Virus record (IMG/VR): IMGVR_UViG_3300035703_004056
Coordinates: 1-32,412 of that record
DNA from: a virus
Length of the DNA stretch: 32,412 nucleotides
Strand: one strand, 5' to 3'
In this document: positions 8,069-26,121 of the stretch, one piece after another
Layout of the letters: each line of letters begins with the position of its first letter
Numbering within the stretch: position 1 is the stretch's first letter
Notes under the pieces: generated by a model
What the model was told of the DNA's origin: nothing
The model's database searches: none
The model's input: the letters and a program-made list of their open reading frames with translations, nothing else
Translations under genes and position numbers: made by a program

Positions 8069-8419
8069 TCACCCCCGCACCGTCAAATCCGGCTCGACCA
8101 CCAGCCTCCCTGCGGCCACAGTGTATACCGCGCCCGCGATTTCCACCTCTAGATCGAAGTACAGCCGCACGGTCCTGGCCCCCAACCCCTGAGTATCGGC
8201 CGGCACGAGTTCGATCACCCCGGCGCCGCTCGCGGCGTCGGTGACTGTAATGCCGGAACCCACGGCCTTCTGGAAGACGACGGCGCTCGCGCCCGGCGAC
8301 GTCTTCGCCGTGATCCAAATACCGGCGCCTGTGAGGTCCACCGGGTTGCCGCCAAGCGCGACTACAAAGTCGAGGACCATGGTGTTACCGCGGTACATGG
8401 TCAGTTGCTGTTGCTGCAT
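8069..8419 (-). CDS. BppU-like baseplate/tail N-terminal domain protein
   Basis: This 116-residue protein opens with a beta-rich domain that resembles the N-terminal domain of lactococcal phage BppU: TMYRGNTMVLDFVVALGG, then PVDLTGAGIWITAK and a closing VYTVAAGRLVVEPDL. In those phages the domain plugs receptor-binding proteins into the tail tip. The N-terminal glutamine run (MQQQQ) is a curiosity. The start ATG 8417-8419 is 2 bases after the stop of the 14-residue repeat protein, with GAGG 5 bases upstream. It is the last gene of the late operon. The partner may be the repeat protein before it. Confidence 0.65.
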   Translation of the reverse strand: MQQQQLTMYRGNTMVLDFVVALGGNPVDLTGAGIWITAKTSPGASAVVFQKAVGSGITVTDAASGAGVIELVPADTQGLGARTVRLYFDLEVEIAGAVYTVAAGRLVVEPDLTVRG

Positions 8420-8421
8420 GA

Positions 8422-10938
8422 TTACCTCGTGCGCAGGCGCGCCACCGGCGCATCTGCTGGCGTGATGATGGTTTCTGGTATGGCCCGTGCCGACAATGTG
8501 GCCCGTGGAATCGCGCGTGGCGTGATCGAGCTAACCAGCCCGGCGGAAGAGCGAAGGAGGACGCCCGTGCCATGCGCCGGCGCCTGAGTTGCCCGGAATC
8601 GCGCACTGGACCCATGGCCCCTCACGAATCTGGCGAGTAGGGCGGTACCGGTCGCGTGATCCCGAACCTGGGTAATGACGGCGACTGAATTGGAGCCGTG
8701 GGATGTTTGCGCCGTCGCGCGGAGGAGTGACACGGCGCCGTGTGCCGGTTCTATGGTCGCCCGGAGCAGGGAATTGGCGCTATTATCCGCAGTGGACGTT
8801 GCGCGGAGCAGGGAGCCAGCTACGTGGGGCTTCTCTACGCCCGCCCGGAGTGCCGCATCGGCCAGGTGCCCGCGAGTGACCGTCGCCAGAAGGATCGAAT
8901 CGGACGTGGAGACGTCCGCGCCCGTGGATCGTAGAAGCGCGTCTCCGGCGGAGCTGATGGCTTCGGAGGCGCGAAGGAGGATGCCGACGGAATGGCCGGA
9001 TGATGCAATCCGCCGGAATAACGAGTCCGCCGAACTGCCTGTTACCTTCGTTGCCCGAATCGCTGGACATGTCGAGTGTCCGGCCGCAACCGCCGCGCGG
9101 AGGATCGAGTCGGAAGAGCTCCACTGCGAACCTTCATCCCGGAGCACCGAGTCGCTCCCGTGATCCGCCAGGGTCAATGCCCGCACAAGGGTCCCGGCAC
9201 TGTGCCCGGCCATCGCCATCACGCGCAGGAACGCGTCAACGGTTTGTTCTTGGTCGGATTTGGCAGTCGCCAAGGATGCGACGCCGTGAGCGATTCCCCC
9301 GGTGCGTTGCAGCAGGCTATCGGCAATCTGCGCGGTGACCCGACCGGCGTAGAGCAGCGCGCCGGTGCCGTGCAGGGCACGCTCCTCGATGATCAGGCCC
9401 GAGTCCGCGCCATGTGCGGGCGTGAACGTCGTCCGAAGAGCGGCTCCCATCGAGTGGGCTTTTTGAAAAGCACCGGCAAGTAACGCTTCCGCCGTATGGC
9501 CGACCGTGGACCCGGCCAGAAACGAAGACGTCCCGTGCGGTAGCGTTGGCGTGCTCTGGAGGAACACGTCCGTGGCGTGGCCTCGGGTCAGCGTTGCCCT
9601 GAAAACGGCACCGCTCCCGTGAGACTCGACGACCGTCGCCCGCAACACAGCCGCCGTCTCGTGGCTTGGCCCCGTCGTACTCCGGATCAGCGAAGCGGCG
9701 GCATGGGCCAGCCGTGCTTCTACCAGAAAGGAAGCAGCGCTGTGTGGAGCCGTAGTTGTTAAGCGGAGAAACGTCTCCGATGCGTGCGCCCTCGTCGCGA
9801 CAAAGCGTAACTGCGAATCCGTCGGATGGTATGACTCCGCCGTCGCGCGCAGCAACGAGCTCGAGGCACTCCCGACCGAGTCCGTCGCCCGGAGAACTGG
9901 ACCCGCCATATGGGGCTGGGTGACCGAAGCCAGTACGAGAGAGTTCGCCGAATGATTCGGCGCCACCGTCGTGCGCAGAACCGACGATGCCCCGTTCGTC
10001 TGGACTGTCGTGGCGCGTAACGACGCATTCGCCGAGTGGAGTACCGATGCGGTCGCCCGCAGCAGGGAACCCGAATGGTTCGCAGCCGTGACCGAGGCGA
10101 GGAATAGCGAGTCGGTCCAACCCGCTTTCACTCCTGTCGCACGGAGACAGGAATCTCCCGAATGGTTCCGGTTGAACGTCCTCGTCGCGCTACTCAGCGC
10201 GGCGTAATCGAGCGGGGCAGCACCCAACTCGAAGTAGGAAACGTAGGCGCCGGAACTCGTCCAATGAGAAGTCTCAACCACTCCCGCGACGGTTGCATCC
10301 GCGGAATGAGATTGCGTCGCCGAAGGGATGACGAACTGAAGGTTCGAGGTCGAGAACTCAACCCACGGATTGTCGTAAGTGACGGCGACATCATCCTCGG
10401 GGAGATCGGTAGCCGCGGCATCCCCAAACTCGAGCGTGGAATCGTGATCGGCGCCACCCGAATTGGCCGGATCGCCGGCAGTGCCGATCTCAATGACGAG
10501 GAAGTCACCCTCTACTGCCGTGACGGAAGAGGTCGTCGCCGAGAACGACCGGTTCGTGAGAGTGGTGCCCGCCGGGAGTTCGGTCGTATCCCGCGTGACC
10601 GCCAGGACCGTGCCGCGCGCGGTCCCCGTGGGTGACAGGACACGGATGCCCATCGCCACAAACATGTTGTTATTGGCGAGCCGCTCGTAGCCGCGAATCT
10701 GCAGCTTGACGGTTTGCGCGCCAATGGTCTGCGCCGCCAGCGGAAGCGAGACGTACTGCCGGAAAGCCACATCCCGGTTTTGGTTATTGGAATCATCAAC
10801 CGAAACCGAGGCGAACGGACTGCCTTGCCGAGTTGTATAGCAGGCCCGCGACGCTGAGAAACTGGTGTCCTCCCAGGCCGAGTCATAGCCGAATCCAACA
10901 GCGGTGTCGGAACTGGAGAGGTAGAAGCGAGTCGCCAT
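8422..10938 (-). CDS. Tail fibre-like protein with ~39 14-residue repeats
   Basis: This protein has 838 residues. Residues 1 to about 210 form a non-repeated beta-rich domain (TRFYLSSSDTAVGF, then QYVSLPLAAQTIGAQTVKLQ), likely a beta-sandwich for attachment or sugar binding. After one isolated copy (HSADATVAGVVETS), residues about 259-802 are 39 back-to-back units of 14 residues. Two of the units have 13. The consensus is H-S/G-x-x-S-x-L-L-R-A-T-x-x-x, for example HSANSLLRATIEPA-type units. A basic tail of 36 residues follows. The even period with a conserved His, Ser and LLRAT core suggests a regular shaft or solenoid. Comparable H(T/S)TDALLR repeats occur, as I recall, in actinobacterial phage proteins. 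The ATG at 10936-10938 has only a weak AGG upstream. It lies among adhesin genes, so it is probably a host-contact protein. Confidence 0.75.
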   Translation of the reverse strand: MATRFYLSSSDTAVGFGYDSAWEDTSFSASRACYTTRQGSPFASVSVDDSNNQNRDVAFRQYVSLPLAAQTIGAQTVKLQIRGYERLANNNMFVAMGIRVLSPTGTARGTVLAVTRDTTELPAGTTLTNRSFSATTSSVTAVEGDFLVIEIGTAGDPANSGGADHDSTLEFGDAAATDLPEDDVAVTYDNPWVEFSTSNLQFVIPSATQSHSADATVAGVVETSHWTSSGAYVSYFELGAAPLDYAALSSATRTFNRNHSGDSCLRATGVKAGWTDSLFLASVTAANHSGSLLRATASVLHSANASLRATTVQTNGASSVLRTTVAPNHSANSLVLASVTQPHMAGPVLRATDSVGSASSSLLRATAESYHPTDSQLRFVATRAHASETFLRLTTTAPHSAASFLVEARLAHAAASLIRSTTGPSHETAAVLRATVVESHGSGAVFRATLTRGHATDVFLQSTPTLPHGTSSFLAGSTVGHTAEALLAGAFQKAHSMGAALRTTFTPAHGADSGLIIEERALHGTGALLYAGRVTAQIADSLLQRTGGIAHGVASLATAKSDQEQTVDAFLRVMAMAGHSAGTLVRALTLADHGSDSVLRDEGSQWSSSDSILRAAVAAGHSTCPAIRATKVTGSSADSLFRRIASSGHSVGILLRASEAISSAGDALLRSTGADVSTSDSILLATVTRGHLADAALRAGVEKPHVAGSLLRATSTADNSANSLLRATIEPAHGAVSLLRATAQTSHGSNSVAVITQVRDHATGTALLARFVRGHGSSARFRATQAPAHGTGVLLRSSAGLVSSITPRAIPRATLSARAIPETIITPADAPVARLRTR
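8533..10164 (-). repeat. 42-bp tandem coding repeat array
   Basis: This is the DNA of the 14-residue repeats: about 39 head-to-tail units of 42 bp (two of 39 bp). Units have diverged a lot at the DNA level while keeping the protein pattern, so the array is old or under selection for the protein shape. It is not a recent expansion. On the plus strand it appears as recurring GC-rich words such as GCCCGGAGCA and GCGCGGAG. Confidence 0.8.
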
Positions 10939-11353: not shown

Positions 11354-12052
11354 TTACCAGGTGATCTTGACTTGGCCCGTAGCTCCGGCCCCACCACTCA
11401 GACTCAGGTTGTTGGTACCGTCGCCAGCGGAACGCCCGCCGCCGCCCCCACCCGGATTTGTTCCATTTGCACCTGAGGCACCGGAGCTAGAGGACAAATC
11501 GCAAAACCCTCCATTACCCCCGTTCCCGCTCGGCCCACCCCCGCCGCCAGTGCCGCCATTTGGACTGCCGCCCGCCGACCCTGCTCCGCTGCTTGAAGCG
11601 CCACCACCGCCACCACCGCCGTAGTAGGAATAGGAATCGTTACTCTTCACGCCCCCCGCACCACCGGAATAGGACAGTTGGAAGCCAGTGCCGCCCGAAC
11701 CAGATCCGCCACTTCCGCCACTCGTAGTCTGGCCTGGTCCGCCAGCCGTCCCCAGCACCGTCGCGGTACTGATGAACCAGGAGTCCTCATTGTTAGCTCC
11801 GACGTACAGGCTGTAGGAACTGCCGGGACTCACGCTCCTGATGCTTTTGGCGTAGCCACCGCCACCGCCACCGCCACCACCGGGTCCAGGGGGGTAATCG
11901 CCGTTATAGCCGAGACCGCCGCCCCCGATACATTCGACCGTCACAGAGGTCACTCCAGACGGACAGGTCCAGGAATAGCTACCCGCCGTCGAATAGGTCT
12001 GAGACCCCGGCGAGTAACCGTTCCCGGAAAGGAGCATCTGCTGGATTGACAT
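11354..12052 (-). CDS. Glycine-rich tail adhesin
   Basis: This 232-residue protein has a short N-terminal helix (MSIQQMLLSGNG), then a beta-sandwich-like part (YSTAGSYSWTCPSGVTSVTVECIGGG). The rest is dominated by glycine stretches: eight or more glycines around residue 65 and many GG/GGG blocks after that. It ends SLSGGAGATGQVKITW. This glycine-rich layout, closed by a VKITW-like strand, is common in phage fibre-tip proteins. In the T-even adhesin gp38, such blocks fold as a polyglycine type II sandwich with receptor-binding loops. That fold is an inference here. The ATG overlaps the stop of the upstream 691-residue fibre (TAATG), which fits a shaft-tip pair. Confidence 0.7.
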   Translation of the reverse strand: MSIQQMLLSGNGYSPGSQTYSTAGSYSWTCPSGVTSVTVECIGGGGLGYNGDYPPGPGGGGGGGGGYAKSIRSVSPGSSYSLYVGANNEDSWFISTATVLGTAGGPGQTTSGGSGGSGSGGTGFQLSYSGGAGGVKSNDSYSYYGGGGGGGASSSGAGSAGGSPNGGTGGGGGPSGNGGNGGFCDLSSSSGASGANGTNPGGGGGGRSAGDGTNNLSLSGGAGATGQVKITW

Positions 12053-14127
12053 TAAGCCACCCCGGCGCCGGATATAACGAACACGTTCGAAGCCACACAC
12101 AACACCGTGGCCACGCCTCTTTGCGCCAGCGTCCGGTTCCCGGTCGTCGCGGTACCGGCCAAGTACATGGTTACGCTGCCCCCTTGCGTGATCGTTTGGT
12201 TAGCGGCCGAGTTGTTATAGATCGTCACCGCTTGTCCAGCCGAAAACACACTGGCCGGGACCGTCACGCCGCCTGTGGTGATGGAGATGTGCTTTCCAGT
12301 GTCACTGGCGATGAGCGTGTACGCGGAGGTCTTTGCATTCGGCGGGATATCGCGCAGGTTCCCGGCCGCATCGGACACCGCGTTGAACGTGACGTTGTTT
12401 CCAGTCCCGACGTTCTGATTGACCGTGTACGAAGATATGTTGTCGGCAACCCGCGCAGAATCTACCCGGACCCCATAGGTGCTGGACCCATTCCATCCCA
12501 TGAGAGTTGGATACGTGGCAGTCCAACCAGTAGCAGCGTTCGTATTATTGATTGCACCCCCCGCGGGGGAAGTTCCCGCAGACGCATCAAAAATCGTATG
12601 ACCATTCCCATAATTCTTCCACGCCAGTTGCCCAACAACAGCACTGAGTGTGCCGTTCGTAAGCCAAGTGGAACCCGTCGTGGACAAGGTAACGGCGCTA
12701 CCAGCAGAGGTTGCATAATTGACGCTGAAATTACTGGGACTCCAGACATAGATGTTGGAGCCGTCATTGGAACCCCACAGCCAACTCGGCTGACCTCCCT
12801 GACCAGCCCAATTGAAGGTCATGGCCGTTCCGTTTCCGCCACTTTGCGAGAGGGTGGAGGCCTTAGACGCGAGGGTAGACGTCGCAGCATTGCCCGTCAC
12901 GCTGATTCCCCACGAACCGCTGGCCCCCGTTCCGGTCAATGTCGGTGCGTAGGAGTTGAAGTTGTTGGAATGCAGGATCGGATACGCCGCTGCTCCCATG
13001 GACCAGCCACCGACCTTGAAGACGTTGTCAGCATCGAGTCCGAAATACGCTGCATAGGCGCCCGGGCGGTGAAAGGCCATGAAGGCGGCATTCGTTCCCC
13101 CGCCACCATAGACCTCAATCGCCCCAAGACTTCCCGTCGAGTTGGCAATCCCTCCCGAACCGAGCGCGGCTGACGCCGTGATACGTCCGCTGAAGCTTCC
13201 GGTAGTTGCGGTGACTGAGCCACCGCTCAGGTTCGTAGCCGTCGTGGCAGTCGAGGCGTTGCCGGAAAGCGAAGCCGTGATCGTACCTGCCGAGAAATTG
13301 CCCGAGGCATCACGGGCCACGATCGCTGAAGCCGTGTTCGCGCTGGTCGCGTTACTGGTGAAAGTGATGGCTCCGGTTGCAGCATTGACGCTGATGCCGG
13401 TACCGCTGGTGGCGAGAGACAGGACGCCCGTGTTTGCAATAGTGACTGCCGCGGAACCGCTATACGAGGTGCCACTCAGGCCAGTGCCGATGGTGAGGGC
13501 GTTAGGGTTGATGGCGGTGATCACTATCGATCCGCCCAGAGAGACGCCGCTCCCGTTGATGGTGACCGACGAATTTGTGAGCGAACCATTGCCGATGCTG
13601 GTCAGCGTATTGCTCGCCCCGCTGATCGTCTTGTTGGTCAGCGTATCGGTGGTCGCACGCCCGATGAGCGTATCGGTGGCTGCCGGAAGAGTCAGGACTC
13701 CTGAGGCCGCGGCAGTTGCGACGATGCTCGTCGATCCCGACGTGGACCCTGCGAGGGTAAACCCTCCGGACCCGATAGCCGGCGTCACCAAAGACGGAGA
13801 AGTCGCAAACACCAGCGCACCAGTTCCGGTTTCATCGGTGACGGCGGTTCGCAGGTTGGCCGAGGAGGGCGTGGCGAGGAAGGTCGCCACGCCGCTCCCC
13901 ATCCCGCTGATGCCGGTTGTGATCGGCACCCCGGTCAGACTGGCACCGGACCCGCTGAAGGCTCCTGCCGCAATCGTGCCGGAAGCGGACACGTTTGCGA
14001 CGTTGCTCAGCGAGTATCCGCCGCCATCCGTGTTGCCGCCCCACAGTGCGAGAGCGGCGGCGATCTCGTTCCAGGCGGACGCGGTGACCAGGAAGCCCGT
14101 GGCACGGTTACTGGCAGGCCAAGGCAT
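12052..14127 (-). CDS. Large tail fibre protein
   Basis: This 691-residue protein is rich in Ser, Thr, Gly and Ala. The N-terminus (MPWPASNRATGFLVTASAWNE) resembles adaptor segments that sit on the tail. The middle is a shaft of repeated short beta-motifs (GTLTLPAATDTLIGRATTDT-type and LSGNASTATTATNL). The last 120 residues match a module seen at the end of many phage fibres: DTGKHISITTGGVTVPASVF, then ANQTITQGGSVTMYLAGTAT and LAQRGVATVLCVASNVFV. There is no peptidase-type chaperone at the end. GGAGGT (complement of 14133-14138) lies 5 bases before the ATG, deciding the start. The gene overlaps the previous one by 20 bp and the glycine-rich adhesin by one base. Confidence 0.8.
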   Translation of the reverse strand: MPWPASNRATGFLVTASAWNEIAAALALWGGNTDGGGYSLSNVANVSASGTIAAGAFSGSGASLTGVPITTGISGMGSGVATFLATPSSANLRTAVTDETGTGALVFATSPSLVTPAIGSGGFTLAGSTSGSTSIVATAAASGVLTLPAATDTLIGRATTDTLTNKTISGASNTLTSIGNGSLTNSSVTINGSGVSLGGSIVITAINPNALTIGTGLSGTSYSGSAAVTIANTGVLSLATSGTGISVNAATGAITFTSNATSANTASAIVARDASGNFSAGTITASLSGNASTATTATNLSGGSVTATTGSFSGRITASAALGSGGIANSTGSLGAIEVYGGGGTNAAFMAFHRPGAYAAYFGLDADNVFKVGGWSMGAAAYPILHSNNFNSYAPTLTGTGASGSWGISVTGNAATSTLASKASTLSQSGGNGTAMTFNWAGQGGQPSWLWGSNDGSNIYVWSPSNFSVNYATSAGSAVTLSTTGSTWLTNGTLSAVVGQLAWKNYGNGHTIFDASAGTSPAGGAINNTNAATGWTATYPTLMGWNGSSTYGVRVDSARVADNISSYTVNQNVGTGNNVTFNAVSDAAGNLRDIPPNAKTSAYTLIASDTGKHISITTGGVTVPASVFSAGQAVTIYNNSAANQTITQGGSVTMYLAGTATTGNRTLAQRGVATVLCVASNVFVISGAGVA

Positions 14128-14506
14128 CTCTCACCTCCTCGCAGGGTACCGGCTGCACGGAGTAGAACCAGGGATGATCATCGCGCCACCGCCCGGCCAA
14201 ATGGATTTCGCCATCGCCGGTCACGTAGGCCATCGACTGGACATTCGAGCCGTTGACGGTTTCCTGCCAGCCGACCAAATAAATGACCCGGTCCGTTCCA
14301 CCCACCTGGCGCTCCACACGCCGGCGGAAAATCAGGCGCTGCCCCGGGTCAAGATGCAGCCGGAAGAGGACCGTGTCGTCCTCGCGCAGCAGGGCGAACG
14401 ATTCCAGCCGCTCCCGGTCAATGTCCACGTATCTGCTCTCGCTGCCGTCGGCATGGTACTGCGGCAACGTGGATCCGTCGTTGTATCGAGCTTCCCAGCG
14501 CATCAT
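14108..14506 (-). CDS. Hypothetical phage protein
   Basis: This 132-residue protein starts MMRWEARYNDGSTLPQYH and has a mixed beta composition (LESFALLREDDTVLFRLHL, later RVIYLVGWQETVNGSNVQSM). It has no signal peptide or membrane segment. Proteins with a W-x-A-x-Y-x-DG-x-x-L-x-Q-Y opening occur in phages, but I cannot name a family. Two ATG codons are adjacent at 14504-14506 and 14501-14503, right after the TAA of the upstream gene. Its position between a small structural protein and the long fibre suggests a virion or fibre-assembly role. Confidence 0.6.
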   Translation of the reverse strand: MMRWEARYNDGSTLPQYHADGSESRYVDIDRERLESFALLREDDTVLFRLHLDPGQRLIFRRRVERQVGGTDRVIYLVGWQETVNGSNVQSMAYVTGDGEIHLAGRWRDDHPWFYSVQPVPCEEVRDALACQ

Positions 14507-14508
14507 GA

Positions 14509-15054
14509 TTAGGTCTCGTCGTACTTCCAGGTGAAGGTTTCCTGTGCCGTGGCGCCCGGGCCGGCCGTCGAGCCGACTTCCATCTGGAAAACCACGAAAT
14601 CGCCAAAGTCACCCGTCGAAGGTCCGTTGATGGACCCGGCCACGGACTTGGGTGACGCACTGGTGAAGGCGAACGCATCGGTCGGCGCCCCGGCGAGCGT
14701 CGCATAGGCCCCGGTTGTGAGTTGCGTTCCGGTTGTGCCGGGAGTCCCGGTTGCCTGCACGTACCCGGTGGCCGTGTTCATCTTGCAGGTCACGCCGGTT
14801 CCGAATCCGTTTCCTCCGTCGGTATACCACCGCAGGTTGTTGATCGTTCCCGAGGGCGCGGTATCGGCGCTGAGCCGTGTGGCGACCCAGTAGGAATAGT
14901 TGGTGCCCGTCTCGGGAATCTGAATTGGGTTGCTGGTGCCGGCGACACTGTGCGCGTCCTCGGCGTTGGCGCGCGTGTTGATGCCGGTGATATTGGTTTT
15001 TGTCGGGGAACCGGATACTCCGGTCCAGCGGCGAATGGTGACGGTAGCTGCCAT
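14509..15054 (-). CDS. Hypothetical structural protein, beta-rich
   Basis: This 181-residue protein is made of Thr/Gly/Ser-rich beta strands (TVTIRRWTGVSGSPTKT, then YSYWVATRLSADTAPSG and NNLRWYTDGG). It ends ETFTWKYDET, a typical last strand of a beta-sandwich. It resembles virion decoration or fibre-accessory proteins with a conserved NxxWYTDG motif, but I cannot name the family. AAGGAG precedes ATG 15052-15054. It is the first gene of the fibre set, directly upstream of the 132-residue hypothetical protein. Confidence 0.6.
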   Translation of the reverse strand: MAATVTIRRWTGVSGSPTKTNITGINTRANAEDAHSVAGTSNPIQIPETGTNYSYWVATRLSADTAPSGTINNLRWYTDGGNGFGTGVTCKMNTATGYVQATGTPGTTGTQLTTGAYATLAGAPTDAFAFTSASPKSVAGSINGPSTGDFGDFVVFQMEVGSTAGPGATAQETFTWKYDET

Positions 15055-16467: not shown

Positions 16468-17153
16468 TTAATGGCTCCAAAGAGGGCGCCCCCACCGATG
16501 GGGGCGGCTATTTTGAGAATCTTGATGGCGAGCGAATCGGGTCTGGTGATTCGCGCCACATTCGCGGTCGTCTGGTTCACGTTGGCGACGATGCCCGGCG
16601 TGGCCTCCCGGATGGTGCGCAAGGTGCGCGAGGTCTCCCCGGCGGTTGTCCGGGATGCTCCCAGTAGGGCGGTCCATTGCGCCTGCCAGCAGGCCCCGTT
16701 GCCTTTGCAGTCCGTCCAGGGATCGAGGCGCGCCCCGACCATCGCCGGAATGCGCCGGTACTCATCGAGCAGTGCGACGGCGGCGGCGGTCGGGACATCG
16801 GCCTTCGCCAGAAGCTCCCCAGTGCGGCGGTCGAGCAGGACGAGCGTATCCCTGCGCGCTTCGGCGATCTCCGTCAGTGTCTGGTTCCGCCACTGTTCGG
16901 ATTCAACGACCGCAGCGTCTCGGGCGGCCGCAGCCTGCGCTTCAACTGTCCTTCGCCACGCTGCGGACTCAGCCGTGAAGTCGCCCCGGAATGCCGCAGA
17001 GTGCCGTTCGGCGATCTCCTCGAGCCTGTCCGGCAACCCAGCCGCCGTCACCTCGAGAGTGCGAACCAGCGCAAGCGCTGCAACGACGAGCCAGATCAGA
17101 ACGCCGAGCAGCACAAGGCAGAGAACATGCCGGCAATGTGTGAGGAACCCCAT
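16464..17153 (-). CDS. Membrane-anchored coiled-coil protein
   Basis: This 229-residue protein has one strong N-terminal membrane helix (HVLCLVLLGVLIWLVVAALAL, about residues 8-28). A long alanine- and arginine-rich helical stretch follows (ERHSAAFRGDFTAESAAWRR, then AAAARDAAVVESEQW), then a short loop with two cysteines (DCKGNGAC). It ends in another helical part with a small hydrophobic end (KILKIAAPIGGGALFGAIK). A single-anchor coiled-coil protein next to an endolysin could be an inner-membrane spanin, but it is longer than usual and I do not recognise a family. The ATG overlaps the TAA of the endolysin gene (TAATG), so the frame's upstream extension is not used. Confidence 0.5.
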   Translation of the reverse strand: MGFLTHCRHVLCLVLLGVLIWLVVAALALVRTLEVTAAGLPDRLEEIAERHSAAFRGDFTAESAAWRRTVEAQAAAARDAAVVESEQWRNQTLTEIAEARRDTLVLLDRRTGELLAKADVPTAAAVALLDEYRRIPAMVGARLDPWTDCKGNGACWQAQWTALLGASRTTAGETSRTLRTIREATPGIVANVNQTTANVARITRPDSLAIKILKIAAPIGGGALFGAIK

Positions 17154-17707
17154 TAGCTGGCCCGCGCCGCCGCGATCGCCTGGCGGACATTCGGTTGCGC
17201 GGCGATCTGCTGAGCAAGTGCGGCGTAATTTCCGGCTGTGGCATAACCCGCCGCGCAAATCCCCCCGATCAATGCATTAACATCACGATTCTGCTGAAAC
17301 GCCGTCCACGCGGACCGATACCGGGCAGCCGTCGTAATGAGGCCCACTTTGTCGGCGATGCTGTCTTCGGCCGTCTCGTAGTCGGCAAACTTCCGTTCGA
17401 CGTTTATGCGGAAGTATCCCGGCCGGTTCGACATGGGAACCGTGGAACGGATCCGTTGCCGTTCATCCAGCGGCAGGCGGTTGATCCCGTCCTGGGTCAG
17501 TTCTTCCCAGGTCGGAACCCAGGAGAAGGACTTGTGACGGGACGGATTGAACGTCATGCCAAACAGGTTGTTCTTCCCGCTGGGCCGTTTCCCCCAGTTG
17601 GATTCGATGGCCCATTGGGCGATGAGCACTTCCGGCGGATAACCGGCGCGGTGCTCGTAGGAAATCGCGATCGTCGCCATGGCGGCGAGGTGGTGGACTC
17701 GTGTCAT
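17153..17707 (-). CDS. Endolysin, glucosaminidase (GH73/FlgJ-like)
   Basis: This 184-residue single-domain peptidoglycan hydrolase should cleave N-acetylglucosaminyl bonds in the cell wall. The catalytic-site region reads VLIAQWAIESNWGK with the general-acid candidate Glu35, followed by NNLFGMTF. Later come FADYETAEDSIADKVGLI and CAAGYAT, matching the GH73 order (AxxExGWG, NxFGIK, Y, AGYAT). There is no signal peptide, so it needs a holin to cross the membrane. A 45-residue upstream extension of the frame is antisense to spike sequence and was rejected. ATG 17705-17707 has AGGA upstream. It opens the lysis cluster and follows the tailspike. A virion-associated role is an alternative. Confidence 0.82.
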   Translation of the reverse strand: MTRVHHLAAMATIAISYEHRAGYPPEVLIAQWAIESNWGKRPSGKNNLFGMTFNPSRHKSFSWVPTWEELTQDGINRLPLDERQRIRSTVPMSNRPGYFRINVERKFADYETAEDSIADKVGLITTAARYRSAWTAFQQNRDVNALIGGICAAGYATAGNYAALAQQIAAQPNVRQAIAAARAS

Positions 17708-17754
17708 AAGGATCCTGTGGTGTAGGGAGGGAGCGGTGAGCCGGGTGGTGTCGC

Positions 17755-20700
17755 TTAGGACGCCGAGACCAGAACGCCGCCCCGGAAAATGAGGGTCGTG
17801 TAGCTGAAGCCGTTGATGGTGAACGTCCCGATGACATTCCACGTCTGGCCTGAGTAGCCGCCGTTCACGTTGTAGCCGCCGGCATTGATGCCATTGGCGC
17901 CGACGTTGATGCCGGCACCCACGAACTGGCCGCTTGTGTTGATCACCTGGGTGGTGCCGACATAGAAGCCCCCGTTGGCTCCGGTTCCGGCGGAGATGCC
18001 TGCATCCGATTGAATGGAGTTGTAGGCGCTCAAGCCCGAGGACACATAGCCCCGGCCTTGGATGTAGGCATTGGGCGCATAAATTGCCGGGCCGATGGAG
18101 CGGTTGCTCTGTAGTGCGTCGGCCAGCGTCAGGGCATTGAAGGTGACGTTGGCGTTCGTGCTGATGTTCTGCGGGAGGCTCAGTGTGATGCCGCCGGTCG
18201 ATCCCGATACGGAGACCTGGTTGGCGGTACCACTGAGCGAGGTCACGCCGGCATTCGTGATGGTGACCGTGTTCGAAGCGTTAGAGATCGAGATGCCGGT
18301 ACTCGCAGAAATGGCGATCGCCGGGCCGGTCATCGAGTTGATAGAAGTGAGCCCACCACTCGCCAGGAGATCCACGTAGGCGCTGCCGTTTTGCGAGACC
18401 CGGAACTTGTTGGTCGCGGAGTCGAAATAGATCCGCCCCTGGCCAGCCGCCGACAACCCGGCATTGGCAGCGGATTCTGCCGAAAGCGTCAATGAAGTCG
18501 TGCCGATCAGGTACTTTGCCGTCACGCCACCAGCGCTGCATTGGATCTGGTTCGTCGCAGAACCCGAAGCAGCGAATCCGGCAGCACTCACGGAACCCGT
18601 AACGGCGATCGCGTTCGAGGCGGCGCTCGTGATCGTGAGCGTCGAAAACGTTGGTGTGGCTGAGACATGAATGGACTGCGGAAGACTCAGCGTTACGCTG
18701 CCAGTGCCGGCTGATGCGATGACCTGGTTCGCCGTTCCCGTGATCGAGCTGACCCCGCCCCCCACTCCAGCCAAGTCGACGGTGGCCCAAGCCGAGCCAT
18801 TCCAATACAAATAGGTGGAGCCGCTTCGATGCGCCCATGCCCCATACCCGGTGCCCGGCGAGTTTGGGTTCCCGGCGAGCGTCTTCAGATAAACCGCCTG
18901 ATCGAGCGTAGCGCCGAGTCCGGCGTACACGCCGCCCGAAGGTGCCTGCAAAGAGTTCGATGCAGTTCCTGAGACGTTCACGCCCGCGGCCGATACGATG
19001 GCTGACGCGGACAGGTTGCCGGCCTGGTCGATCGAAACCGTGGAGCCGAAGGTCACCAGGCCGGCGTTGTTCATCGTGATGCGGGTGGCTGCGGCGGTTT
19101 CGTCAGAGACGAAGAACTGGCCCGAAGCGTTCACGCCGAATCCGAAGGATCGCTGGTTGGCGCCCGCATTCCGGATCAGGTTCAATCCTGCGGCGCCGTC
19201 GTTGCGAATTGCGATCAATGAAAGCGCCGAGACCCCGCCGCTCAGCGCATTGATGGCAGTCGATGACGCGGAGGTGGTGAGGAACCCTTCCTGGGACTGG
19301 ATGAAGCTCGTGGCCGCGACAATCGCTGCCGTGCCGGTGGTGCCCGTGACGGTGAGAACGCGCCCTGTGTTGTTCCAGGTCAGGTTTGAAGTATCAGCGA
19401 GGGAGGACGCGCCGGCCGTGTAGGGAAGGCGCCCCGCCGTCAGGCCGCTGAGAGCCGGTGGGGAAAGCGGCGACCATACGCGGACGCCCGCCGAAGTCGA
19501 CGTGCTCTGCTCGAAGAGCTTCGACGTCGCGTTGTAGCGGATCAGTCCGACGGTATCAGCGAGAAGGTTCGCTTCAGTGCCCGAGAACGTCGTCGCCGCC
19601 ATCGCCAGGAAGCCGTCGGCATAGACCTTCGAGGAAAGCAGCGCGTCATCAAAGGCCGATGACGTGCGCGCCCCCGTGGTGATGACACCCCCGACGGCAT
19701 CCAGGCTGACGTTGAGAAGCGGCCCGCCGGTTCCGCCGCCCGACAGCGCCGTCTGGTCGAGCAGAGAGAGAACGGACTTGGTTTGTGCGCCGTTGGTCCA
19801 ATACGCCCGGAGATAACCGTCTTCGCGCTGCAGAGTGTTCTTGCTCTCGACCGCGAGCCCTGTTTTGTTCGACGGAAACTCCCGTCCGGTGCGCGAGCCG
19901 CTTGTTGGCGCCTTCAGAAACTCGAAGGTGTTCGTGCCGTGAAGACGATTACCATAGACTCGGTTCACGTCGGAGCCGACGAACGCAGACCCGTTTGGAT
20001 CTTCTTGGACGACCGCCGTGACTGTGCCCGGGCTGTAGTGTATGTCGTTGTTGGTGACGGTGTTGCGGTAGGCACGCTGGTTCGAGCCGCTGCCGATGTT
20101 GCCAAGAATGATCGGGGCCACTGATGCCGCGGATGGATGTTCAATGGTATTGCCGGAGACGGTTCCGCGCCGCGAGGCGTACATCCGCACCGCGCCCAGC
20201 CCGCAATTACGGAACCGATTCCCCGTCACCCGGACGCCAATGGCGGCGTCAGCGAGGTTGTTCGTATTCGAGGTCTGGACGCCGTAGCAGTAGTTTCCCG
20301 CCCACGATGCAATCCCGTCTTCGGTGTATTCCGGTTCGCCAACGGTCGGTACGATCACCGTGTTGTCACTGACCACACCTTCGGCAAAGCCGTCGAGATC
20401 AATCGCTGCGCCGTAGCAGGAGACGAAGGAGTTTCCCCGGTAGTTCACCCCGCGCGTAAGTCCGGCCGTGTCAAGGCCGACCGCCCACTGGCCGTTGATC
20501 CACCGCGGGACCCCGGCGCTGACATCATCCGTGCAGATGTAGCCGATGCGCCGGAAGAAGTTTCCCGCGATGTCACCGCCGACAACTCCGCCCAGCATGA
20601 TCCCGTCGCGGCCGATGTCTTCAAACGTACAGCCCTGGATCTTGAAGTCGGTATGCAGCGTGCCGAAGCCATAGAGATGGCTCCAGACCTGGTTCCCGGT

Positions 20701-21423
20701 GCCACGGCGGAAACGGCCGCCACGCACCGTGAGGCTGCGGACACCGTAGCTGTTTGCGAGCCCATCTCCCTGGGCGAGAATCCCGCCGGTCCAGCTTCCG
20801 TAGATTTCGCTGCCGGCCGTTGCCCCAAACAGGAATGAGCGGTTATCGTGCAGGTGCGGTTCGATGATCTCGATGCGGTAGACGTGGGCCGTCCTGGCAT
20901 CGATGTGCACTGCGTACCCGCCGGTATGGAAGATCCGGCAGCGGAACAGCGTGATGTCGCTGGCGCCTGGATGAATGCGGATTGACGAGTTGGCGACCAG
21001 CGTGCTCGATGAGGGATCGCTCAGGCTGCTGTAGAGCGCCGTGGCAGGAGTGGTGACTTGGCCGTCAATGGCCAATTCCCCGCAGCCGGATTTTGCACCC
21101 GCGAAGTTAAGGACACCGCGTCCTGCCGAAAGGTTCCCGGCCCGCTTAAAAATTGTGCGCGCCGCTCCGTCGCCGCGCAGAAATACGTTTGCGGGAACCG
21201 TCAAGTCCATCACCGGGTAGACGCCCCAGGGCAGATACAGCACGCCTCCGCCAGCGCCCGCTAAGGAATCCAGGCCATCCTGAATCCAGCCAGTCAGATT
21301 CGTTGCCGTAGTCCCAGCGCGCACGGCAGCGTGCTGCGCCTCGGGAATGAAGTCGAGTGCGGACGGCCGTTCGCCAAGTTTGTCGCCGAGGCTTCGGGAA
21401 ATTCGATTAGCAAACTCAGGCAT
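17755..21423 (-). CDS. Tailspike/fibre with beta-helix domain
   Basis: This protein has 1222 residues. The N-terminus (MPEFANRISRSLGDKLGERP, then ALDFIPEAQHAA) and GGGVLYLPWGVYPV through LTVPANVFLRGDG are the usual entry into a right-handed parallel beta-helix of the pectate-lyase type. Its turns continue to about residue 500 (GNTIEHPSAAS, NNDIHYSPG). Spikes of this kind bind and often cut surface polysaccharide. The second half is a fibre shaft with at least two copies of the module GTANQVxxSxxTGxxTLSLPQ, and it ends FTINGFSYTTLIFRGG. ATG 21421-21423 overlaps the hub stop by 8 bases. An earlier in-frame start at 21483 lies inside the hub gene. Catalytic residues cannot be assigned by eye. 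Confidence 0.8.
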   Translation of the reverse strand: MPEFANRISRSLGDKLGERPSALDFIPEAQHAAVRAGTTATNLTGWIQDGLDSLAGAGGGVLYLPWGVYPVMDLTVPANVFLRGDGAARTIFKRAGNLSAGRGVLNFAGAKSGCGELAIDGQVTTPATALYSSLSDPSSSTLVANSSIRIHPGASDITLFRCRIFHTGGYAVHIDARTAHVYRIEIIEPHLHDNRSFLFGATAGSEIYGSWTGGILAQGDGLANSYGVRSLTVRGGRFRRGTGNQVWSHLYGFGTLHTDFKIQGCTFEDIGRDGIMLGGVVGGDIAGNFFRRIGYICTDDVSAGVPRWINGQWAVGLDTAGLTRGVNYRGNSFVSCYGAAIDLDGFAEGVVSDNTVIVPTVGEPEYTEDGIASWAGNYCYGVQTSNTNNLADAAIGVRVTGNRFRNCGLGAVRMYASRRGTVSGNTIEHPSAASVAPIILGNIGSGSNQRAYRNTVTNNDIHYSPGTVTAVVQEDPNGSAFVGSDVNRVYGNRLHGTNTFEFLKAPTSGSRTGREFPSNKTGLAVESKNTLQREDGYLRAYWTNGAQTKSVLSLLDQTALSGGGTGGPLLNVSLDAVGGVITTGARTSSAFDDALLSSKVYADGFLAMAATTFSGTEANLLADTVGLIRYNATSKLFEQSTSTSAGVRVWSPLSPPALSGLTAGRLPYTAGASSLADTSNLTWNNTGRVLTVTGTTGTAAIVAATSFIQSQEGFLTTSASSTAINALSGGVSALSLIAIRNDGAAGLNLIRNAGANQRSFGFGVNASGQFFVSDETAAATRITMNNAGLVTFGSTVSIDQAGNLSASAIVSAAGVNVSGTASNSLQAPSGGVYAGLGATLDQAVYLKTLAGNPNSPGTGYGAWAHRSGSTYLYWNGSAWATVDLAGVGGGVSSITGTANQVIASAGTGSVTLSLPQSIHVSATPTFSTLTITSAASNAIAVTGSVSAAGFAASGSATNQIQCSAGGVTAKYLIGTTSLTLSAESAANAGLSAAGQGRIYFDSATNKFRVSQNGSAYVDLLASGGLTSINSMTGPAIAISASTGISISNASNTVTITNAGVTSLSGTANQVSVSGSTGGITLSLPQNISTNANVTFNALTLADALQSNRSIGPAIYAPNAYIQGRGYVSSGLSAYNSIQSDAGISAGTGANGGFYVGTTQVINTSGQFVGAGINVGANGINAGGYNVNGGYSGQTWNVIGTFTINGFSYTTLIFRGGVLVSAS

Positions 21424-24400
21424 AGGAGATTCCCACTTCTGCGGCGGCCACCGTCCCCGGATCCCCGGGCAGGTAGATTTCACGCCACTGGTTGTTTTCG
21501 CTTGCCGAAGCGACGCCGAACTTGTCGAGGGTCTGCACTTCGACGAGCAGTGTCTGGCCGAGCAGGTTGTCGACGGGGATGGTCAGCGCCATCGGATTGT
21601 CCGGCCCGTCGTTATAGATGGAGTCCGAGTCGGCGGCGTAGGAGTAGCTCGGCTCCTGGACGACGTACACGCTGGTCGCATCCGGCGTGACGTCCCAAGG
21701 TTGATTGACGGTGTGGACGGTGGCGGTGTTCGAAACAACCCGGCGAATCTGTCCCTTGCCGGTTCCGCCAATAATGCGCACGAGCAAGCCGCGCTCCTCG
21801 TTCGGCGTCATCCCGGCCGGATAGGTTGTGTTCTGCCACCTTGCATCGCCGATCGTTGTGGCCGAAAATATCGTCGCCTTGGTGCGGAGGATCAACACGT
21901 CTCCGGTTTCGACGCCGTCAGCCAGCGGGGTTCCCGCCACCGTGAAGGTGTCCGCTGTGTTGCTCGACACGGTGTAGTCGCGGATCTGCGCGGAACCGTC
22001 GCTCGCATCGCTGATGATCGAGACGATGCGGCCTGCCCACTCGTTGGCGGTCCAGCCAGCACCGGTAATCGTGATGGAGGAAGTCCCGACCGATCCGATC
22101 TGCATGCCGTCGACGCCCGAGTGCTTCAGCCGGTAAACCAACATCCGCACCCGGCTAATGGCGCTGGATGGCAGTGTGTAGTTCCGGGTCGCGGAGATGT
22201 TTGTCAGGGTGATCGAAGCAGGAACTCCAGACGCGGCGATCTGCCGGCACAAAGAGCCGTAGTTGGTCGAAGCGGAGACCCAGTAACTGGTCACGCCTGC
22301 AGGCCAGATAATCCCGCCGACAGTGATCTGGTTCGCGTTCCCCGCGCCCACGCGGACCGTCACCGGCGATGAGGGCGCCGTCATTTTGCCAGCTGCGTTG
22401 AGCCCGTAGAAGACGATAGTCACGTAGCTGTTCGCGGGAATCGTGCCGCCCGTGGTGGCCGTCGAGTAGGAGGTGGCGACCGGCGAGGCGTCGGTGTAGA
22501 AGCTCGTCACCGGGGCCGCGCCGCTGACCTCAAGCTTCGCCAGCGTCCCGACATCGGCCAGATCCTCGTAGACCAGGCGCAGGCCGAAGAACTTCTCGCC
22601 CACGCTGTACAGCGGGTTGCCGGCGAGCGGCGTTTCGACATTGCCGCCCCAGGGTGGAACCGGGAGCTTCGAAAAACCGATCTCTGCCGGCACGGGTGCC
22701 GCGGTCACATCGGCTGGTTTCGGGCCCACCGCCAGGTCGTACATCTCGTCGGTGGTGGTCCGTCCGGAGACATCAATCGAGTAATCTCCGTTCAGCCGCC
22801 AGCCCGAGACGCGGAACTCGCCGACGCCATCCGGCATGTCGGGATGCGTCATCGAGCAGACCATGCCGGGTTCGACATTCAAAGCCAGCACCGTCGTGCG
22901 GAACGAGAGCCCCCGGGCCTTGCGCTGCTGGGTCAGGTTGTAGCCGCCCAGCTCCTCGCGCAGCCGTGTGGTGACAACCCGCGCCGCCTGCGACTTCGAC
23001 GGACAGCCTACCAAGTTCATCTCGCTTTTGAGAAACACCGGAGCCGTGGCCCCACCAATCAACTGTGCCTGGTCGATGTCGTAAAGCGTGACCGTATTCC
23101 GGATGAACTCAAACTCCTCATCCGCAAAGTTCGCGGTCAGGTGGTTGAAGGTCGGCCGGACGGGCTTTAGCTTCAGGCTGTTGAACAGGATGTTGCCGTT
23201 CGTGAAGGCCTCGACGACGCTCGAGTTGTTGCGGATGCCAACCTTCAGCCGGCCGAAGGCGAAGGTGTAGTAGCCGAGTGCCGTCATGAGGATCTCCTGG
23301 ATCCAGTCCCGCAATGGCTTTTCTTCCTGGAGAATCCCGTTGAACCGGAACTGGGTCTCGGTTCCCGTTCCGACGACCTTGGCGACACTGGCATCGCAGA
23401 GAGCGGCTGCGGCGATCGCGGCCGAAACGTCAAAGTACTGCTCGCAGTCCGCCGCCGTTGAGAAGCGCAAGCCGCGCGCACGGAGCAGGCAGTTGATGGC
23501 AATCCAGACCGGATTAGTAAGTATCTGCTGGGTGCGAACTCCGGGGGCACTCCAGACCCAACCGGCCAGCCCCAGCGACACCGAGACCTGCATCTGGTGC
23601 TGCGTGAGGGCCGTTGGTTGGATCCCCTTCTGGTCGGTCCGGCGGATCTCGGCGAACGCCGTGCCGGCTGCATAGATCGATGGCAGGAAAGGCCCGGTGT
23701 CGCTCAGCACAAACTGATCGTTCACGGCCGCCGGATCGAGCCCTAGCGAGGTCCGCAGGCCGAGCGGCGCGGGCCCGTGCGGTGGCTGGTTGTCGAGCAG
23801 CTGCTTCAACGGGTCGGGGTCAAAGGCGCCCAACGGTCCCTCGCCGATGATCCCGAGCGCGTCGTAGAACTCCCCTTCATCGCGCCCGGCGATGATCTTG
23901 GCGGCCACCGGGATGGCGACGTTCGTGTAGATCTCGGGCACGGTCTGGCTGTAGGCCGAGTCGCCGATGATGCTGGTGGCCGTGATCGCGCGCCGGCCGT
24001 TGGCGTTGTCGCGGATCCGGACGCCTTGAGGGGAAGCGACGATGCCGCCGAAGTAGCGCTGCATGCCATGGGAGGCGCAGCCGTTGGCGGTATCGAGACC
24101 CTTGTCGCACGATGCCGGGTTGCCCCCGGAGCCCACGGAAGAGTACGGACACGCCGGGCCATTGAACACCTTCCAGCAGCCGCGGTCCACCCGGCGGGTC
24201 GGATAAGGCAGTGTAAGTTCGTAGATCCCATCGGTCGCCCGCACCGGGAACTCGGGACCGGCGTCGAGGTCCCAGTCGACGATCTCGCCGCGCCAGAGGT
24301 CGAGCTTGATGCCCTGGCCCACGTGGAAGAGGGCGAACTCGATGGTGGCGCGCCACAGATCGACGGCGTTGGCAAGATCCCGCATTACCCGGTCAGCGTT

Positions 24401-25057
24401 TCCGAAGATAAAGCTCGCGTCGTCGGCGTCATTGCCGAGTGACTGCGAAATGCTCGACCAGGTGAGAAGCCGAGCCTGATACAGCTGTCCGCCCACGGTG
24501 CACCGGCGGTCGGAGACGCAGATCGCTGGATAGCCGGTGGCGCGCGCCTGGATCTTGACGAGCGGGATCAGTTCCTGGACCTGCGATAAGAGAGCCGTCG
24601 GAAGACCCGCAGAAGGAAACCGCGTCTGCGTCGAATTCAGCGTGTAGGTCGGGGCGGTCGATGGAATCTCGACGAGGACCACGCCCACGGAGGCAACGGC
24701 GTTCGACAGATGATCAAACGTCAACGGCGCATTCTCGAACCGGCAGGTGGTCGCGGCGGTCGTGCCGTCTGGATTCGGCACCTGGAACGTGAAAGCGCCA
24801 TACGGTCCGCTCATCGCCTCCCAGAAGTCGCGCAGTCCTTCCCGCTCTGTCCGGCTCATCGAGCGCCGGACGACAAAACGGCGCGCCCCGGTGCCCAGAT
24901 AGAAACGCTGCTCAATCTTGGCGTTCGCGGAGCCGAACTGGTGGGTGACGACCGATGGGCTCAGCGTCTGAACGAACGGGTACTCAGCGAGGATCGGAAA
25001 CGGAGTCCCGCTGACGCTGATTTCTGGGACGCCGATCGTGCCAAGAGTGTCGGGCAT
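21416..25057 (-). CDS. Giant tail-tip hub: gpM-, gpL- and gpJ-like parts
   Basis: This protein has 1213 residues. Residues 1-130 resemble a gpM/distal-tail domain (RFYLGTGARRFVVRR, then REGLRDFWEAMSGPYGAFTF). Residues about 150-340 resemble lambda gpL, including four cysteines (C294, C303, C317, C327; spacing C-x8-C-x13-C-x9-C) that could hold an iron-sulfur cluster as proposed for gpL. Residues about 450-830 look gpJ-like hub (SVSLGLAGWVWSAPGV, then RDWIQEILMTALGY). The rest is beta-rich fibronectin-like modules (about 890-1000) and a C-terminal part that may touch the spike. A strong GGAGGT (complement of 25064-25069) sits 6 bases before ATG 25055-25057, which overlaps the upstream TGA, so the longer frame to 25120 is rejected. 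No separate gpK-type peptidase or gpI gene follows. Confidence 0.72.
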   Translation of the reverse strand: MPDTLGTIGVPEISVSGTPFPILAEYPFVQTLSPSVVTHQFGSANAKIEQRFYLGTGARRFVVRRSMSRTEREGLRDFWEAMSGPYGAFTFQVPNPDGTTAATTCRFENAPLTFDHLSNAVASVGVVLVEIPSTAPTYTLNSTQTRFPSAGLPTALLSQVQELIPLVKIQARATGYPAICVSDRRCTVGGQLYQARLLTWSSISQSLGNDADDASFIFGNADRVMRDLANAVDLWRATIEFALFHVGQGIKLDLWRGEIVDWDLDAGPEFPVRATDGIYELTLPYPTRRVDRGCWKVFNGPACPYSSVGSGGNPASCDKGLDTANGCASHGMQRYFGGIVASPQGVRIRDNANGRRAITATSIIGDSAYSQTVPEIYTNVAIPVAAKIIAGRDEGEFYDALGIIGEGPLGAFDPDPLKQLLDNQPPHGPAPLGLRTSLGLDPAAVNDQFVLSDTGPFLPSIYAAGTAFAEIRRTDQKGIQPTALTQHQMQVSVSLGLAGWVWSAPGVRTQQILTNPVWIAINCLLRARGLRFSTAADCEQYFDVSAAIAAAALCDASVAKVVGTGTETQFRFNGILQEEKPLRDWIQEILMTALGYYTFAFGRLKVGIRNNSSVVEAFTNGNILFNSLKLKPVRPTFNHLTANFADEEFEFIRNTVTLYDIDQAQLIGGATAPVFLKSEMNLVGCPSKSQAARVVTTRLREELGGYNLTQQRKARGLSFRTTVLALNVEPGMVCSMTHPDMPDGVGEFRVSGWRLNGDYSIDVSGRTTTDEMYDLAVGPKPADVTAAPVPAEIGFSKLPVPPWGGNVETPLAGNPLYSVGEKFFGLRLVYEDLADVGTLAKLEVSGAAPVTSFYTDASPVATSYSTATTGGTIPANSYVTIVFYGLNAAGKMTAPSSPVTVRVGAGNANQITVGGIIWPAGVTSYWVSASTNYGSLCRQIAASGVPASITLTNISATRNYTLPSSAISRVRMLVYRLKHSGVDGMQIGSVGTSSITITGAGWTANEWAGRIVSIISDASDGSAQIRDYTVSSNTADTFTVAGTPLADGVETGDVLILRTKATIFSATTIGDARWQNTTYPAGMTPNEERGLLVRIIGGTGKGQIRRVVSNTATVHTVNQPWDVTPDATSVYVVQEPSYSYAADSDSIYNDGPDNPMALTIPVDNLLGQTLLVEVQTLDKFGVASASENNQWREIYLPGDPGTVAAAEVGISYA

Positions 25058-25461
25058 CAGTTCACCTCCACGAGTTGGATCTGGATATCGGTTCGCGCCA
25101 TTCCCATCGATTGCTGCCACTCCCCGTCAAAACGAACGGTGACTCGTCCCACCGCACTCGCCCCGGTGGGATCGTAGTTTGAGCCGATGGGGACAAGCGC
25201 AAAGGGATCGTAGTAATAGAACGGCTCGGTTCCGCCGCGCCGGGCCAGGTAGAAGGAGCGCAAGGCCGCGAGCGCGGAGCCGGACAACCGGGCAGCGAGG
25301 ACCCATTTGCGGCGGCTGCTCGCGACCTGGAGCGCGCGTTGCGACTCGCCGTTGCGATAGTCGTTCGCCTGCAGCGCAATCTCCCGGGTTTGCTGGAAGG
25401 CCGTGCAGAGCATCTGCGGGAACACGGTCACCGGCGCTGCGTTCGAGACATTTCCTGGCAT
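25057..25461 (-). CDS. Minor tail protein, gpM-like
   Basis: This 134-residue protein begins with a short linker. A compact beta domain with RKWVLAARLSGSALAALRSF, FYYYDPFALVPIG and VTVRFDGEWQQSMGMA then ends in a strand, IQIQLVEV. The order (a helix that counts residues around an FY..DP turn, then a VRF strand and a final LxEV strand) is that of gpM/DUF2460-type distal tail proteins, which ring the tail tube end and receive the hub. Its stop overlaps the hub start. Its own ATG 25459-25461 has only a weak site (AGAAG). Unusually, its upstream neighbour on the genome is not the tape measure but a toxin-antitoxin pair on the other strand. Confidence 0.65.
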   Translation of the reverse strand: MPGNVSNAAPVTVFPQMLCTAFQQTREIALQANDYRNGESQRALQVASSRRKWVLAARLSGSALAALRSFYLARRGGTEPFYYYDPFALVPIGSNYDPTGASAVGRVTVRFDGEWQQSMGMARTDIQIQLVEVN

Positions 25462-25805: not shown

Positions 25806-26121
25806 GGGTCCTCCAGAGACAGAGGTGGATGCTTCCTGGTATGCCTCTGCCGAAGGACGTCGACAAACGGAGCGAGAGTTCGCCAAGGCATTTCGCAAAG
25901 GCAGCGTGGTCCGATCCTCTGGGATCAACGTTCCGTTAACGGATTCGGCTGTGCTTGCTGATTTGGTGGCGAAGGCGAAAGCGAGAGCGACCAAGGCAAT
26001 ATCGATTCGACTTTCTGTCGCGGATCTCGAACGAGCACGAGAGCTTGCCGACGAGGAGGGAGTCGGGTACCAGACGATTCTGAAGCGGGCGATTCAAGAG
26101 GGATTGAAAAAAGTCTCTTAA
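25783..26121 (+). CDS. Ribbon-helix-helix antitoxin (BrnA/CopG type)
   Basis: This 112-residue protein has a hydrophilic N-terminal part (about 1-70) that should wrap the toxin. It is followed by a ribbon-helix-helix DNA-binding end: KAISIRLSVADLERARELAD, then GVGYQTILKRAIQEGLKK. The YQTILKRAI helix is typical of CopG/BrnA antitoxins. AAAGGAG lies 6 bases before ATG 25783. It would neutralise the BrnT toxin and repress the shared promoter by binding the GTATATAC sites. Its TAA (26119-26121) overlaps the TAA of the tape measure gene from the other strand (26118-26120), in the palindrome CTTAAG, so there is no room for a terminator between them. Confidence 0.85.
   Translation: MARNSKYEGPPETEVDASWYASAEGRRQTEREFAKAFRKGSVVRSSGINVPLTDSAVLADLVAKAKARATKAISIRLSVADLERARELADEEGVGYQTILKRAIQEGLKKVS

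Follow-up and report, generated by a model that had tools for sequence, protein, structure and literature searches.

A 14-residue repeat array with a swappable N-terminal domain and a co-occurring partner gene in uncultured phages

Triple β-spiral shafts, such as those of the adenovirus fibre and reovirus σ1, are built from 15-residue repeats with a conserved Gly/Pro turn. The trimeric β-roll of BpaC has 42 units of 14 residues and a hydrophilic Thr/Asn core, and the left-handed parallel β-roll of YadA and BpaC carries an invariant glycine at position 8 (PMC9543794). In collagen-like phage fibre shafts, interchangeable repeats are joined to phage fibre domains (PMC3368898). Here we analyse a 32,412-nucleotide stretch of viral DNA (the complete IMG/VR record IMGVR_UViG_3300035703_004056; hereafter the window), in which an open reading frame on the minus strand (positions 8422–10938) encodes a fibre-like protein of 838 residues. 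We read it as a predicted jelly-roll N-terminal domain followed by a shaft of 14-residue repeats, the latter marked by its periodicity.

The window array resembles the head of YadA and BpaC in its 14-residue period, in the great length of the arrays and as a putative part of an adhesive stalk or head. Polar, Thr/Asn-rich versions of this β-roll exist, and the analogy fits the polar arrays of the family described below. Unlike YadA and BpaC, the window array is of phage origin, and no autotransporter anchor is found. The only PDB profile match of the array is BpaC (E 7.4, with biased composition), and there is no Pfam YadA match. Neither the family nor the window has a conserved glycine at any repeat position. 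Because the invariant glycine is absent, the array is not classed as a β-roll and membership of the YadA type is rejected; by analogy, the shaft may still work like one. The triple β-spiral likewise combines a short repeat, loops of variable length between conserved strands and a role as fibre shaft, but the array has a period of 14 and lacks the conserved Gly/Pro, and so does not fit that class. Collagen-repeat phage proteins are among the viral fold matches of the N-terminal domain, but the window protein contains no G-X-Y triplets, and its shaft differs from collagen-like shafts in its repeat and in having a partner gene of its own.

The array comprises 39 units (residues 259–802; 8533–10164, minus strand), as delimited by periodicity and matched by the family profile. 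Residues 259–398 form ten units of 14 and residues 399–411 one of 13, followed by four of 14 (412–467), one of 13 (468–480) and 23 of 14 (481–802), which gives 37 units of 14 and two of 13. The in-register count at lag 14 reproduces exactly the extent, the number of units and the two off-length units given in the earlier note. Identity at lag 14 is 0.247, about threefold over the background of about 0.075 at neighbouring lags, and the BLOSUM autocorrelation reaches +0.69 at lag 14, compared with a maximum of −0.16 over 500 shuffles at all lags. The best consensus for the window array is H-S/G-A/T-D/G-S-L-L-R-A-T. No DNA-level tandem repeat is found across the array, and the DNA identity between its units averages 0.42. 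At conserved residues the three codon positions are identical at frequencies of 0.54, 0.63 and 0.34. The third base thus varies almost freely there, indicating that the protein pattern is kept by selection, as had been proposed from the divergence of the DNA.

Ahead of the array lie two degenerate units (residues 211–238) and an insertion of 20 residues (10165–10308, minus strand). The nearest relative, L050, has a similar insertion (FELG.APL). The array is followed by a C-terminal tail of 36 residues (8425–8532, minus strand), in which domain searches find no recognisable domain or receptor-binding domain. Short C-terminal repeats are present in this tail and in the proteins of L006, L016, L057, L059, L062, L074 and L121; they often number two to four, are about 10 residues each and are phage-specific (for example, VEQEVRVYAVEQEVRTYAV; DDPRLIYV...DDPRTIYI).

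Relatives were located by scanning DNA for two-unit patterns (LLRAT-LLRAT, or HxTD[AS]xL twice), which return 22 IMG/VR contigs and L010; a search with the whole protein finds no array relatives. Among the matches in genome contigs, the sole true array is that of L049, from a 1.2-Mb metagenome bin, and the remainder are mostly other low-complexity repeats. In all, homologous arrays are present on about 35 IMG/VR contigs. They contain 4 to 67 units, spaced mostly by 14 residues and also by 13, 15, 16 or 17, with whole domains inserted between some units. The consensus from about 700 units is H-T-T-D-[AS]-x-L-[RK]-x-x-x-T-x-T, which is somewhat biased because each of two adjacent units had to carry H, T, D, A/S and L to fit the scan pattern; arrays reached later through the partner gene have S, T or N at position 1, or F, I, L or V at position 3. 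In tblastn, with E values scaled to a search the size of a phage database, the window array matches those of L016 (2e-33) and L006 (5e-33), and several arrays score from 1e-31 to 1e-33. The family profile A1, which includes window rows, matches the window array at 3.5e-38. As a copy of the family repeat, the window array is degenerate and agrees least at D4. Its 29 best-scoring units have H at position 1 in 76%, A, T or S at position 3 in 89%, S or A at position 5 in 79% and L at position 7 in 76%; at position 4 they have D in 34% and G in 31%.

With these queries, 50,697 GenBank phages yield no credible array, and the local positive control of that search works. The tblastn matches to Aeromonas phage BUCT551 and to Borrelia plasmids fall on the opposite strand to annotated genes and are discounted. 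No family for the 14-residue repeat exists in Pfam, PHROGs, NCBIfam or the PDB, and a literature search for the motif finds no description of it; a match of L006 to DUF2430 is below the cut-off of that family and one of 76 scattered weak ones. By sequence, the window array belongs to a 14-residue repeat family that is undescribed and widespread in uncultured phages. The earlier note mentioned related H-T-T-D-A-L-L-R repeats, with fold and function seemingly undescribed; the IMG/VR arrays bear out that such repeats exist, and the library searches find no described family. The note placed these repeats in phages of Actinobacteria, where the GenBank search has no array to offer, and actinobacterial hosts for the array phages are unsupported. 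Other 14-residue repeats, SKSAYLKGG and SLDLFIRGF, which loosely follow x-[DS]-[AS]-x-L-x, are present in L055, L080 and L064; they fail the family profile and are possibly remote kin.

The N-terminal domain (residues 1–205; 10324–10938, minus strand) is predicted by AF2 to be a jelly-roll, with pLDDT above 90. The model aligns best with 8yzn, a PepX_C/CocE-type domain (VIA-align Z 11.8, 155 residues aligned, rmsd 2.8), and with the X-prolyl peptidase 6nff (Z 10.6), a fold like that of the C-terminal domains of CocE and X-prolyl peptidases. Carbohydrate-binding modules, the furin P-domain and TNF-like folds rank lower. The domain has no sequence match in Pfam or the PDB, and the model points to a shared fold only.

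Relatives of this domain are encoded on 39 IMG/VR contigs, where it is followed by a variety of tails. In L050 the domain is 65% identical and precedes an array closely related to that of the window; in L055 and L080 it precedes the SKSAYLKGG repeat, and in L052, L057, L058, L060 and L062 Ser/Pro- or Ser-rich tracts. Other relatives have repeats of 18, 20, 21 or 22 residues, or no tail. Conversely, the array is joined to unrelated N-terminal domains in other phages. The best case for the array being a shaft module comes from this swapping of N-terminal domain and array in both directions. The shaft or stalk role proposed earlier is therefore well supported by domain swapping, and physically unproven. 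With six or more different repetitive tails on one jelly-roll domain, L050–L088 make up a natural shaft-swapping series. The domain also exists without a shaft, at about 30–32% identity to the window jelly-roll, in Streptomyces phages Wakanda (gp27) and Muntaha and in ct7ZZ929, where its gene lies between the major capsid gene and the head–tail adaptor or connector gene. In Wakanda and ct7ZZ929 the stand-alone gene is downstream of the major capsid gene, and in Wakanda it is immediately ahead of the head-to-tail adaptor.

Among contigs with Ser/Pro-rich shafts (L052, L057, L058, L060, L062 and L136), five of six carry GT2 glycosyltransferase genes, in several cases near the shaft gene, compared with 7 of 32 other N-domain contigs. 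This suggests that Ser/Pro-rich shafts are glycosylated. The window carries no GT2 gene, and one is present on just 6 of 18 array contigs, so we make no such claim for the window array. In L052, L057, L058, L080 and L081, adjacent fibre genes of one phage share the same type of shaft repeat, as if homogenised between genes.

Most arrays adjoin two further genes. In the window, the first encodes a 181-residue protein (14509–15054, minus strand), recognised as a partner of the shaft by its co-occurrence on contigs, and the second encodes a 132-residue protein (14108–14506, minus strand; W.A.Y.DGT..Q ... RLI.RRR), with relatives at 12 array loci and no family match. The 181-residue protein has 117 relatives in IMG/VR, with a mean identity of 62%, and no match in GenBank phages, Pfam, PHROGs or the PDB. 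The window gene (matched over 14512–15054) fits the family profile A4, which holds a window row, at 1.8e-89, and in an independent tblastn its product matches L049 at 8.5e-65. Together the two genes make up an orphan cassette, and many of its relatives (L089–L168) lie on phage contigs longer than 100 kb.

The 181-residue gene is present on 24 of the 26 array contigs (20 of the 22 found from the repeat motif alone, plus the window, L010, L049 and L050), about four of which are near-duplicates of others. It is present on none of the 36 contigs with the same N-terminal domain but another shaft, and on none of four contigs without arrays. In the reverse test, 13 of the 17 contigs of at least 40 kb that were found by the 181-residue gene and tested carry an array, and on the contig of L154 the two are about 100 kb apart. 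In L136, one of the exceptions, a Ser/Pro-rich shaft takes the place of the array beside the gene. In L140 and L144 the array is replaced there by 51-residue repeats (FFKPDGTKMY..G), which are β-propeller-like. In a Mantel test, the 181-residue protein diverges in step with the array profile (r 0.53, p 0.0003, n 23), for which GC content does not account. At nine loci with all three genes, the correlation is 0.40 for the 181-residue protein (p 0.03) and −0.16 for the 132-residue protein; shared descent of the cassette could contribute. By these patterns, the 181-residue protein tracks the 14-residue shaft, not the anchor, and is probably a dedicated partner.

The window array gene lies downstream of a tail module with genes, all on the minus strand, for a tape measure protein (26118–29654; PF20155, 6.9e-15), a glucosaminidase or lysin (17153–17842; PF01832, 9e-18) and a glycine-rich tail-tip or adhesin-like protein (11354–12100; PF21722, 4.6e-7). 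A 691-residue tail protein, whose N-terminal start is common to the window and L050, is encoded between cassette and array (12052–14127, minus strand; phrog_4900, 6e-13), and a 116-residue protein (phrog_1084, of unknown function, 4e-14) directly downstream of the array gene (8069–8419, minus strand). At 17755–25120, adjacent reading frames of 1242 and 1234 residues overlap by 68 bases; neither has a Pfam or PHROG match at E 0.01. In other phages the array gene is found between head–tail adaptors and Neck1 (L006), a little ahead of the major capsid gene (L022 and L049) or between capsid and connector genes (L033). The cassette therefore moves between modules, from a tail setting here to head or connector settings elsewhere, which suits an accessory fibre of the virion surface better than a core tail part.

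For ten window units with a 48-row alignment, the AF2 monomer model is all-β, with one strand (positions 5–12) and one turn (positions 13–4) per unit, at a mean pLDDT of 47 and a pTM of 0.35; in the N-terminal construct, the array portion has pLDDT below 45. The monomer prediction called for by the earlier note thus yields one strand per unit, at a confidence that also fits disorder. In VIA-align, the model matches the SufB/SufD β-helix (Z 8.5) and the β-helices of tailspikes and SRRPs, a hint of solenoid likeness to which we give little weight at pLDDT 47; that 14 residues form one short solenoid turn is possible on the same model. A test for parallel or antiparallel strands finds only noise in the coupling of charge, volume and hydropathy between neighbouring units. 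The arrays of L097 and L138 are strongly polar, which makes a hydrophobic core in them unlikely. Position 7 is K or R in some arrays, and there is no other conserved stack of large hydrophobic residues. On a charge–hydropathy plot several family arrays fall on the disorder side, and the window array on the ordered side.

We favour, with a little better than even confidence, a modular fibre of the virion surface composed of a jelly-roll anchor, a β-structured shaft and a dedicated structural partner. The N-terminal domain would anchor the protein to the virion, and the array would form a β-structured shaft with one strand and one turn per unit, probably self-associating and most likely as a trimer. 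This shaft would be a spacer, rigid or semi-rigid, with the number of units setting its length. The expected shaft length is about 19 nm if each unit is one 4.8-Å β layer, and about 50 nm if the shaft is a triple β-spiral, which rises about 13 Å per unit. The 181-residue protein, which is weakly charged (12%) and rich in Ser and Thr (26%), would recognise the shaft as a cap, a clasp or a bound decoration, and its gene would follow the shaft type, not the anchor, for that reason. Either the distal end of the fibre or its repeated surface would face the host or the surroundings. It is distinctly unlikely, in our estimate, that each unit instead provides the strand on which one copy of the 181-residue protein docks, with the array a track carrying dozens of β-type subunits along the fibre. 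Such a track, strand-complemented or clasped, would have no known counterpart among tailed-phage fibres.

Other readings reassign the partner or the shaft. T4 gp57A and gp38 are fibre assembly chaperones that leave the mature virion, and the 181-residue protein could likewise be a chaperone for this shaft type, absent from the mature virion, with the shaft unchanged. Its association with shaft type rather than anchor and its occasional distance from the array would suit this role, but its composition is that of a structural β protein, not of a charged or helical chaperone, and we regard the role as somewhat unlikely. We think it unlikely, too, that the array serves as a flexible spacer, for the most part disordered, in which length and polarity alone matter. 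Ser/Pro-rich low-complexity tracts, to which it would be equivalent, do swap in after the same N-terminal domain and in one case lie beside the 181-residue gene, many arrays are polar, and the array is modelled at pLDDT below 50. However, a spacer needs neither a 14-residue register kept strictly for hundreds of residues nor conservation of the H, T, D, A/S and L positions; the window array itself falls on the ordered side of the charge–hydropathy plot, and a dedicated partner tracks it.

A monomeric β-solenoid adhesin, with one coil per unit and glycan binding along its length, would agree with the single strand per unit, with the β-helix alignments of the low-confidence model and with the lack of a separate C-terminal receptor domain. 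We nevertheless consider it very unlikely, since AF2 confidence is low despite the supplied alignment, units of 13, 15, 16 and 17 residues exist and position 7, the only candidate for a large-hydrophobic stack, is itself K or R in some arrays. The earlier note had also read 14 residues as two heptads. The arithmetic of 2 × 7 is compatible with a coiled-coil shaft, but autocorrelation of the window array at lag 7 is at background, the units have a Thr-rich strand/turn pattern and the AF2 model is all-β, so that this reading is scarcely credible.

For the modular fibre that we favour, the shaft family itself is real by sequence comparison, being new to the curated libraries and GenBank phages searched and widespread in uncultured phages; the mechanism of shaft and partner is what we infer. 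Repetitive shafts are usually overlooked in annotation, and the 181-residue family and the N-terminal domain provide markers for orphan genes in many metagenomic phages. The repeat shaft is a candidate natural scaffold of programmable length. For the phages themselves, the findings offer two testable rules: a fixed anchor would take exchangeable shafts like cartridges, and one type of shaft would bring with it a dedicated partner protein.
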